Origin: Aeromicrobium sp. Root344
GTDB taxonomy: Bacteria > Actinomycetota > Actinomycetes > Propionibacteriales > Nocardioidaceae
Direction: 5' to 3'
Length of the DNA: 64,000 bases
Assembly (NCBI RefSeq): GCF_001425755.1
Contig: NZ_LMDH01000001.1
Location: 1,706,335-1,770,334, forward strand
Positions within the stretch are counted from its first letter, which is position 1. Each line of letters opens with the position of its first letter. Made by a program: the position numbers and the translations under genes. This document shows, piece after piece, positions 7,510 to 10,494 of the stretch. Under the pieces are notes generated by a model. The model was not told the DNA's origin, ran no database searches, and saw only the letters and a list, made by a program, of their open reading frames with translations.

Positions 7510-7545
7510 CTGGAACTCCCCCCGCGAAGGTCCCGTTCATACGGT

Positions 7546-7555
7546 TGAACGTTCA
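7546..7555. promoter_or_regulatory. TGAACGTTCA palindrome upstream of the flavin operon
   Basis: A 10-bp perfect palindrome 66 bases before the lipoprotein start, in the only non-coding stretch that can hold the operon promoter. It overlaps a TTGAAC that could serve as a -35 box, though I see no good -10 at 17 bp. Operator function is a guess. Confidence 0.3.
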
Positions 7556-7620
7556 GCCATCCTGTTCCGTTCTCTCCATTGCACGGTGATTCCATACCCT
7601 CGAGCTCAGGAGCCCGACCG

Positions 7621-8079
7621 ATGAAACTCCCAGCGCACAAGAAGATGCTCTCCGCGGCAGCAGCCGCCTCCGTCATGCTGCTCACCGCCGCCTGCGGCAG
7701 TGGTGGCAGCGACGATGCGTCCAGCATGCCCAGCTCGTCGGCGCCGTCCGCCACGACCGATGACTCGTCAGCCGCAGCAGCCACCTACAAGGACGGCGAC
7801 TACGAGGCCGAGGCGAGCTACGTCAACCCGGGTGGTGACTCGAAGGTCAAGGTCGAGCTCACGCTGGCCGACAACAAGGTCAGCAAGGTCGAGGTCACGC
7901 CCGAGGCCACGGACGGCACCTCCAAGAGCTTCCAGGAGAAGTTCGCGAGCGGCATCTCGAGCGAGGTCGTGGGCAAGAGCCTCGACGACCTGAAGGTCGA
8001 CAAGGTGGCGGGCTCGTCACTCACGCACCTCGGCTTCAACGAGGCGATCGACAAGATCAAGGCTGATGCCAAGGCCTGA
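7621..8079 (+). CDS. FMN-binding-domain lipoprotein (152 aa)
   Basis: Signal peptide with lipobox LTAAC (lipidated Cys25), a low-complexity Ser/Ala/Asp spacer (about residues 26-54), then a single FMN-binding domain (about 55-152) of the NqrC/RnfG-type family, with YKDGDYEAEASYVNPGGDSKV and the C-terminal motif region VAGSSLTHLGFNEAIDKI. In related proteins ApbE attaches FMN covalently to a Thr in an SGATxT motif; the aligned stretch here is A130-G-S-S-L-T135, so a serine (S133) would be the acceptor. The next gene is apbE, overlapping by 14 bases. The protein probably sits outside the membrane carrying electrons. Confidence 0.88.
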   Translation: MKLPAHKKMLSAAAAASVMLLTAACGSGGSDDASSMPSSSAPSATTDDSSAAAATYKDGDYEAEASYVNPGGDSKVKVELTLADNKVSKVEVTPEATDGTSKSFQEKFASGISSEVVGKSLDDLKVDKVAGSSLTHLGFNEAIDKIKADAKA

Positions 8080-8938
8080 GCCGACCGCCTGGCAGTTCGA
8101 GGCGATCGGCACCGCGTGGCAGATCGACACCCCTGAGCCGCTCGCCCTGGACGTCGCCGCAGCCGTGACCGCCCGCATCGATGAGTTCGATGCGGTGTGG
8201 TCACGGTTCCGGCCAGACTCGGTGGTCTCCCGGATCGCCGTCGAGGGCGGGACGTGGGTGCTCGATCCCGACTCGCGCGCCCTGCTCGACCTCTACGTCG
8301 CGTTGCACGAGGTCACCGGCGGCGCGGTGACGCCGCTTGTCGGGCGTACGCTCGCCGATCTCGGCTACGACGACACGTATTCCCTGCGACCTGTCGCTTC
8401 GCCCGCTGCCGTGCCGGCGTGGGACCTGATCGCCTGGGACTATCCGGCGCTGACCGCCCATGAGCCGTTGCTGCTCGATGTCGGCGCAGCGGGCAAGGGC
8501 CACCTCGTCGACCTCGTGGCGGGCGTGCTCACGGCCCACCGGGTCGCCGACGTCACGATCGACGCGAGCGGCGACCTGCTGCACCGCAGGGACGATCCCT
8601 TGCGCGTCGCCCTCGAGCATCCCGGCGACGCGACCCGTGCCATCGGCGTCGCGGAGCTGTCTCGTGGACAGGCGCTCTGCGCCTCCGCAACGAACAGGCG
8701 CGCGTGGGGCGACGGCCTGCACCATGTGCTCGACGGGCGCACCGGCGAGCCGACCCGCGACATCGTGGCGACGTGGGTCGTGGCCGACTCGTGCCTGCTC
8801 GCCGACGGCCTCGCCACCGCCCATTTCCTCGCCGATCCGGCCCGACTCGTGTCACGCTTCGACCACGAGTTCGTACGCATGCACGCTGACGGCCGGGTCG
8901 AACGATCCCCGGACTTTCCTGGAGAGGTGTTCTCATGA
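8066..8938 (+). CDS. apbE: FAD:protein FMN transferase, ApbE family (290 aa)
   Basis: ApbE enzymes use FAD to attach FMN through a phosphoester to Thr/Ser of electron-transfer proteins. Here IDEFDAVWSRFRPDSVVSRI, VGRTLADLGYDD and DVGAAGKGHLVDLVAGVL match the family, as do the conserved SGDLLHRRDDPLRVALEHP region and HHVLDGRTGEPTRDIVATWVVADS (His and Thr near the active site). It is clearly partnered with the FMN lipoprotein upstream (14-base overlap) and the RnfD-like/reductase fusion downstream (ATGA overlap). No obvious signal peptide is present, so the location of flavinylation is uncertain. Confidence 0.9.
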   Translation: MPRPEPTAWQFEAIGTAWQIDTPEPLALDVAAAVTARIDEFDAVWSRFRPDSVVSRIAVEGGTWVLDPDSRALLDLYVALHEVTGGAVTPLVGRTLADLGYDDTYSLRPVASPAAVPAWDLIAWDYPALTAHEPLLLDVGAAGKGHLVDLVAGVLTAHRVADVTIDASGDLLHRRDDPLRVALEHPGDATRAIGVAELSRGQALCASATNRRAWGDGLHHVLDGRTGEPTRDIVATWVVADSCLLADGLATAHFLADPARLVSRFDHEFVRMHADGRVERSPDFPGEVFS

Positions 8939-10494
8939 ACGCGAATCCCCGCGACCTGCTCGACCGCCAGCTCGGGCGGGTGACGATGTACCGCCTCGTC
9001 ACGATCGTGCTCCTCGCGCTGGCCGCCGTGATGGTCGCCTACACGGCCGGCGGCACGTTCACCGACCCGTTCACGGTCAAGGCCGAGCTCGTCACGCTGG
9101 TCGTGCTGCTCGCCGCGTCGTACGTCAGCAATCGCGTGTGCGGATTCATCTGGCGCATCACGCCGCACGGTGAGTCGTCGATCATCACGGGGCTGCTGCT
9201 GTGGTTCCTGTTCTGGCCGACGACCGACGGGGAGACGCTTGCGTGGCTCGCCGGCGCTGCCGTGCTGGCGAACCTGTCGAAGTACCTCCTCGCGTGGCGC
9301 GGGCGGCACATCTTCAACCCGGCCGCAGCCGGGGCCTTCCTGATCGTGGTGCTCCAACACGTCGTGAACCGCGAGACCACGGTCGACCCGACGTGGTGGG
9401 CCGCCTCCAAGACCCTGTTGCCGTACGTCGCCGTCGGCGCGTTCCTGGTGCTCTGGCGAACCCGGCGCCTGGACCTCGGCGCGGTGTTCATCGTCCTCGC
9501 CGGCGCCCTGACCGTCTGGGGCTTCACGTCCGGGTACGACCAGCCGTTCGACGCAGCCCTCAAGACCACCGCCTACTCGGTCGCCCTCGTCTTCATCGCC
9601 GGCTTCATGCTGAGCGAGCCGCTGACGCTTCCGCCGCGACGGCACCAGCAGCTGGTCGTGGCCGTTGTCGTGGCCGTCGTGATCTCGTACCCCCAGTGGA
9701 TCGCCCTGCTCGACAAGACGCCGTTCACCGTGGACGGGATCGGCGTGAGCCAGCAGCTCGCGCTGCTGATCGGCAACCTGCTCGCGTTCGCCTTCGCCCG
9801 CCGGCACGGCGTCACGTTCGTGCTCGAGGGGAGCCGGGTGCTCACACCGGAGACACGCGAGCTGACGTTCCGCGCCAAGCGCCCGGTGTCGTTCGAGCCC
9901 GGCCAGTATGCCGAGCTCACCGTGCCGCACGCGGGGGTCGACGGCCGTGGCAGCCGTCGTTCGTTCAGCATCAGCTCGCCGCCGAACGCCGAGGGCCGGG
10001 TGTCGTTCGCGTTGCGCGTGCCGGAGGACTCGTCGAGCTTCAAGAAGGCGCTGCTGGCCCTCGAGCCCGGCGACACGGTCCACGCGACCGGCATCGGCGG
10101 CGACTTCCTGCTGCCGTCGGACTCCTCCGAACCTCTGCTGCTCGTCGCGGGCGGCATCGGCATCACGCCGTTCCTGAGCCAGCTGCGGCACGAGTCGTCG
10201 CGCGATGCGGTGCTGGTCTACGGTGTCTCGTCGCCCGACGAGGTGCCGTTCGTGGAGGAGCTCGCGGGGCTCCGGGTCGTGCTCGTCGGACCCGCTGCGC
10301 CGAGCGGGCTGCCGGACAGCTGGACCTACGTCGAGGCACCCTTCCTGTCGACGGACCTGATCGCCCAGGCCGTCCCGGACCTGGCGGCCCGCACGGCGTA
10401 CGTCTCCGGGCCGCCGGCCATGGTCAACGCCGTGCGCCCGGGCCTCGCGAAGCGGTGCAAGGGCGTCAAGACCGACTACTTCACCGGCTACTGA
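8935..10494 (+). CDS. RnfD/NqrB-like membrane domain fused to a ferredoxin-reductase domain (519 aa)
   Basis: Residues about 20-285 contain roughly nine membrane helices and the motif GRHIFNPAAAGAF, similar to NqrB/RnfD subunits of sodium-pumping or RNF redox complexes. Residues about 290-519 form an FNR-type FAD/NAD module: RRSFSISSPP binds FAD, GGIGITPFLSQL starts the NAD(P) fold, and YVSGPPAMVNAV plus a C-terminal aromatic end close it. The fusion would take electrons from NAD(P)H in the cytosol and carry them across the membrane to the flavinylated lipoprotein encoded two genes upstream. I see no SGAT flavinylation motif in the membrane part. The start overlaps apbE by 4 bases. Confidence 0.82.
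   Translation: MNANPRDLLDRQLGRVTMYRLVTIVLLALAAVMVAYTAGGTFTDPFTVKAELVTLVVLLAASYVSNRVCGFIWRITPHGESSIITGLLLWFLFWPTTDGETLAWLAGAAVLANLSKYLLAWRGRHIFNPAAAGAFLIVVLQHVVNRETTVDPTWWAASKTLLPYVAVGAFLVLWRTRRLDLGAVFIVLAGALTVWGFTSGYDQPFDAALKTTAYSVALVFIAGFMLSEPLTLPPRRHQQLVVAVVVAVVISYPQWIALLDKTPFTVDGIGVSQQLALLIGNLLAFAFARRHGVTFVLEGSRVLTPETRELTFRAKRPVSFEPGQYAELTVPHAGVDGRGSRRSFSISSPPNAEGRVSFALRVPEDSSSFKKALLALEPGDTVHATGIGGDFLLPSDSSEPLLLVAGGIGITPFLSQLRHESSRDAVLVYGVSSPDEVPFVEELAGLRVVLVGPAAPSGLPDSWTYVEAPFLSTDLIAQAVPDLAARTAYVSGPPAMVNAVRPGLAKRCKGVKTDYFTGY

Follow-up and report, generated by a model that had tools for sequence, protein, structure and literature searches.

How could three overlapping genes, encoding an FMN-binding lipoprotein, a flavin transferase and a membrane protein fused to a reductase, move electrons across a membrane without the other subunits of Rnf or Nqr, and to what end? 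The genes lie at 7621-10494 on the plus strand of the window, which is the whole 64,000-nucleotide stretch of an Aeromicrobium genome analysed here. We believe, with a probability of roughly 0.78, that they encode a haem-free exporter that carries electrons across the membrane, built from two components and supplied with a maturase of its own, and probably placed in this genus under sigma-E-type stress control. The operon is a published NQR/RNF-like flavinylation system and not a new kind; what is new here is that the site of flavin attachment differs, that ApbE carries a change to match, and that a promoter motif of the sigma-E type precedes the operon. As far as we found in the literature, NQR/RNF-like systems are described by bioinformatics only, with no assigned role, and we are aware of no biochemical work on any of them. 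The set occurs in every Aeromicrobium sampled and, at two proteins plus ApbE, it is small enough to reconstitute.

Gene set and distribution

The three genes overlap head to tail. The lipoprotein gene (7621-8079, plus strand; 152 aa, lipobox LTAAC) shares 14 bp with the ApbE gene (8066-8938, plus strand; 290 aa), which in turn shares a 4 bp ATGA with the membrane-FNR fusion gene (8935-10494, plus strand; 519 aa). An earlier, sequence-only reading had these coordinates right, and the identities it gave the products, namely FMN-binding lipoprotein, ApbE and a fusion of an RnfD/NqrB-like domain to an FNR domain, are borne out by Pfam, profile comparison and predicted structure. Its claim that the other Rnf or Nqr subunits are missing, for which it named further rnf or nqr genes elsewhere as the refutation, also withstood scrutiny: in the complete genome (a single 3.87 Mb contig, 99.99% complete) there is no match to PF02508, the model for RnfA/E or NqrD/E subunits, and none to PF03116 that would reveal another NqrB/RnfD gene, while both models match control genomes.

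The survey of other genomes that the same reading had proposed shows all three genes recurring, in unchanged order, in each of the relatives examined, one of which is a Saccharimonadia metagenome-assembled genome, so the operon is not a chance arrangement. A full-length fusion is encoded in 23/23 Aeromicrobium genomes sampled and in three other genomes of the family sample, and the membrane-domain profile matches 19 of the 396 genomes in the phylum sample, eight of them strongly. Lipoprotein and ApbE stand beside the fusion in all full-length loci closely examined, the Saccharimonadia locus among them. The closest named record found is from Aeromicrobium ginsengisoli (94% identity over the fusion), and our literature search returned no paper linking Aeromicrobium with flavinylation.

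Several local observations accompany this distribution. At two loci (L052 and L053) about 2.6 kb of unrelated genes separate the lipoprotein (~2.1-2.6 kb) from ApbE (~5.1 kb), both being retained. In one genome (G417, loci L073 / L094) an in-frame stop splits the fusion gene into two frames, possibly a pseudogene or an assembly error. A carotenoid-type oxidoreductase and ClpB, neighbours of the set in the window, were considered as partners and dropped, as they are not adjacent to it in many relatives. In the tree, one Saccharibacteria sequence falls near each subtype on long branches flagged as unsafe, and since the placement rests on these branches we make no claim of horizontal transfer with Saccharibacteria.

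A membrane domain of the NqrB/RnfD family joined to a reductase

The Pfam model for NqrB/RnfD, PF03116, does not match the first ~289 residues of the window fusion protein, although L035, a relative within this subtype, scores 1.2e-5 against it, just below the cut-off. A profile built from 18 relatives nevertheless reaches, beyond obvious kin, proteins that do match PF03116, and hhalign of the membrane domain (residues 1-289; 8935-9801, plus strand) against five PF03116 proteins gives 97.7% probability and an E-value of 1.5e-12, in an alignment anchored on SKY...RHxFNPA and FMxxEPLTLPPR. Direct sequence searches of the PDB returned no match with either the membrane-domain profile or a PF03116 relative, and structure comparison was thus required. 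The structure predicted for the fusion, with a mean pLDDT of 88.2, aligns 257-262 residues to the RnfD chains 8rbq_D, 8ahx_D, 9eri_D and 7zc6_D, with Z scores of 21.3-22.6. Judged by profile comparison and predicted fold, the N-terminal domain is a member of the NqrB/RnfD family, despite the failure of PF03116. A survey criterion based on Pfam would overlook such members, and the NQR/RNF-like system is therefore probably commoner than has been counted. The flavinylation motif [ST]G[AS][ST]x[ST] is absent from residues 1-290 of every aligned fusion member.

The C-terminal part (residues 292-519; 9808-10494, plus strand) is a ferredoxin-NADP reductase-type FAD/NAD(P) domain, matched by NAD_binding_1 (PF00175; 30.6 bits, cut-off 22) and FAD_binding_6 (PF00970; 22.3 bits, cut-off 21.1), and its predicted structure compares with 4eh1 at Z 24.3 and with NqrF chains at about 21-22.

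A variant attachment site and an altered ApbE loop

The lipoprotein is the presumed final carrier of covalent FMN. Its FMN_bind domain (residues ~59-151) scores 21.3 bits against PF04205, below the cut-off of 22, and the same model matches 22/23 of its relatives (best 7.7e-8); the predicted structure has a pLDDT of ~90 across the domain, and Foldseek retrieves the FMN_bind domains 8p2b (E 7e-3) and 8p2a (E 1.6e-2). Within it lies the variant flavinylation site D127-K-V-A-G-S-S133-L-T135 (7999-8025, plus strand). In the literature ApbE acts on the motif D-x-x-[ST]-G-A-[ST], with FMN on the last residue, and by register with this motif Ser133 (codon 8017-8019) is the presumed FMN acceptor. The window sequence, DKVAGSS, does not conform: the site departs from the consensus at two positions here and at three in many relatives, where the Asp is often Ser, so that the motif of the subtype is xxV[AS]GSSLT against the published DxxSGA[ST]. 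At the same time, V129, G131, S132, S133, L134 and T135 are invariant among 23 aligned lipoproteins, and [AS]GSSLT recurs in four more distant loci. With the site off the published consensus, covalent FMN on the lipoprotein is a real question. Membership of the NQR/RNF-like systems stands regardless, because the papers on the system, in the portions available to us, do not define it by the acceptor motif.

ApbE itself (8066-8938, plus strand) is readily recognised by Pfam (PF02424, 129.8 bits, cut-off 25.6) and by comparison with the PDB ApbE 6nxi (E 1.8e-23). One of its loops reads S-A-[TVSI]-N-R-R in 28/28 ApbEs from loci of the GSSLT subtype. The same loop is TSG in the three NQR/RNF-like loci whose target is canonical (SGAT or TGAT), and mostly TSG, with some TSS, in other ApbEs of the phylum. 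The 28 ApbEs are related, so the correlation between loop and site could in its entirety go back to a single event in their ancestor; their apparent co-change is a lead to an insulated ApbE-target pair, not proof of one. If loop and acceptor site have indeed changed to match each other, enzyme and target would amount to an orthogonal flavin-tagging pair. The full form of this idea, in which an S-A-x-N-R-R ApbE and a GSSLT site constitute an insulated code that has no cross-talk with the canonical ApbE/SGAT pair of the same cell, acts before export and is induced by envelope stress through sigma-E, strikes us as tentative and, on balance, rather unlikely.

No ApbE of the group has an N-terminal hydrophobic segment, and the lipoproteins of the group carry lipoprotein signals or membrane anchors. 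A signal-less ApbE with an exported target raises the question of where flavinylation takes place, and the simplest idea is that FMN is attached before export. Signal-less ApbEs are common in part of the Actinomycetota sample, and elsewhere in the phylum a signal or membrane anchor is mostly present (L155-L164).

A putative sigma-E-type promoter upstream of the operon

Upstream of the lipoprotein gene, at 7512-7537 on the plus strand, lies a conserved motif, GGAAC-N17-CGTT, which is a putative ECF sigma promoter of the sigma-E / sigma-H type. It occurs at this exact spacing in 16/24 upstream regions, or 11/18 after near-identical relatives were thinned, whereas every other spacing is found 0-1 times and shuffled upstream regions yield a mean of 0.011 (maximum 2). 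The spacer and flanks are variable, and the motif is missing upstream in relatives outside the main clade. It agrees with the sigma-E/sigma-H consensus of Corynebacterium, GGAAC-N17-18-cGTT, whose sigma-E version is said to be the same as that of mycobacteria (PMC10012870).

Across the genome the motif has 12 sites against 6 for a reversed control; seven of the 12 are inside long open frames and five precede genes in the right orientation. One of the five is the operon itself, and the others stand before sigE with its anti-sigma gene (sigE being identified by NF007229 at 289.8 bits, cut-off 265), a superoxide dismutase, a DsbA/thioredoxin-like protein and a luciferase-type monooxygenase. A site before sigE is the pattern expected of a self-regulated sigma-E, and in this genus the operon is probably switched on by a sigma-E-type ECF sigma factor. 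That sigE and the genes for superoxide dismutase and a thioredoxin-family protein have a promoter motif of this type offers a testable clue to the role of the system.

A near-palindrome, GGTTGAACGTTCAGCC (GGTTG-N6-CAGCC; 7543-7558), overlaps or just follows the predicted transcription start, placed at about 7544. A TTGA-centred element is found in 19/24 upstream regions (shuffled mean 2.1, maximum 8) and is palindromic in 10 of them (shuffled mean 0.04), and its arms sometimes co-vary in relatives (GGTTG..CAACC, GATTG..CAATC). The element may be an operator, possibly bound by a repressor; as a LexA or IdeR site it was rejected, since it matches neither.

A proposed pathway and its alternatives

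Taken together, these features suggest how the system could work. Consider an Aeromicrobium cell under envelope stress. NAD(P)H would reduce FAD in the cytosolic reductase domain. The NqrB/RnfD-like membrane domain would take over the electrons on a non-covalent flavin and relay them to the FMN that ApbE would have attached covalently to Ser133 of the lipoprotein. The lipoprotein, in turn, would pass them to an acceptor on the outer side of the membrane. The flow would be one-way and, as the other Rnf/Nqr subunits are lacking, it would probably pump no ions. The system would probably serve for reduction within the stressed envelope and not for respiration, a role favoured for the main clade by the sigma-E-type promoter.

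The main rival to envelope reduction under stress is iron acquisition, with the lipoprotein FMN reducing ferric iron outside the cell, which we regard as possible and yet distinctly the less probable. In a Saccharibacteria relative (L165, genome G516) the set, there with a canonical SGAT FMN_bind protein, adjoins a VIT1/CCC1-like iron transporter (named by eye), and a VIT1-like iron transporter is likewise a neighbour in six published clusters. Upstream of the lipoprotein gene of another relative (L060), an IdeR/DtxR-like iron box, TTAGGTTAGCCTTATCCAT, agrees with the consensus at 15/19 positions, a score unmatched in 2000 shuffles, and hints that the set is controlled by iron there. In the window, however, no iron gene was recognised beside the set, the upstream regions of the main Aeromicrobium clade contain no iron box with a similar score, and the promoter motif conserved there is of the stress type, which counts against the iron reading.

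Another alternative is that the lipoprotein is no longer flavinylated, with ApbE serving another target or the lipoprotein binding flavin loosely. The departure of xxV[AS]GSS from D-x-x-[ST]-G-A-[ST] speaks for such a loss, as do published mutants in which an Ala-to-Val or a Gly-to-Ala exchange halves flavinylation and the finding that Ser is a poorer FMN acceptor for ApbE than Thr. But replacing the Asp by Ala has only a minor effect, GSSLT is held invariant in the aligned and more distant loci alike, and every locus retains an adjacent ApbE in which the Ser, Arg and His residues are preserved; we consider loss of flavinylation improbable. Least credible by a wide margin is the notion that the fusion, instead of belonging to the NqrB/RnfD type, is an NADPH-oxidase or ferric-reductase-like cytochrome (MsrQ or NOX type). 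Foldseek does rank a bacterial NADPH oxidase highest for the fusion, and another locus of the genome does combine an MsrQ-like fusion with an FMN_bind protein and ApbE of its own, yet it is chiefly the dehydrogenase domain that the NADPH oxidase matches (rmsd 14-18 overall), PF01794 matches only that other locus, and RnfD chains cover the membrane part. Only two His residues of the membrane domain, H78 and H125, are invariant among the aligned relatives, so there is no haem-pair pattern, which speaks against a haem protein.

Comparison with known systems

The other flavinylation locus of this genome (L044, 3977-6634; G000:C1 ~1850976-1853633) resembles the operon in combining a membrane-FNR fusion with FMN_bind and ApbE. 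It differs in its MsrQ-like Ferric_reduct membrane domain (PF01794), expected to bear haem, and in pairing a canonical target (DMISGAT) with a TSG ApbE; this ApbE, too, has no signal peptide. With Rnf and Na+-NQR the operon shares the RnfD/NqrB-type membrane fold, the RnfG/NqrC-type FMN domain and an NqrF-like reductase domain, but its membrane domain lacks SGAT, and ion pumping is without basis.

The closest relationship is to the NQR/RNF-like systems (Méheust et al. 2021; Huang et al. 2024), a published arrangement that the earlier reading did not mention. As far as the available portions of the two papers go, these systems join an N-terminal NqrB/RnfD-like membrane domain and a C-terminal PF00175 domain in one protein and occur in Actinobacteria and the candidate phyla radiation (PMC8238504, PMC11334425), and the Ktedonobacter member modelled by Huang et al. 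has no flavinylation site in its membrane subunit, the two flavins lying close together in the model of the complex (PMC11334425). In the operon, PF00175 is likewise found in the fusion protein, FMN_bind and ApbE genes are clustered with it, the FMN_bind protein is exported, and no site is present in the membrane domain, for which PF03116 is unmatched but hhalign and RnfD structures agree. The domain fusion, the single extracytosolic FMN_bind protein and a membrane domain free of a flavinylation site are thus common to both, judging from the same portions. Four features, of which those portions of PMC8238504 and PMC11334425 make no mention that we found, set the operon apart: a membrane domain below the PF03116 threshold, the acceptor motif xxV[AS]GSSLT in place of DxxSGA[ST], an ApbE with an S-A-x-N-R-R loop and no signal peptide and, in the main clade, a sigma-E-type promoter.
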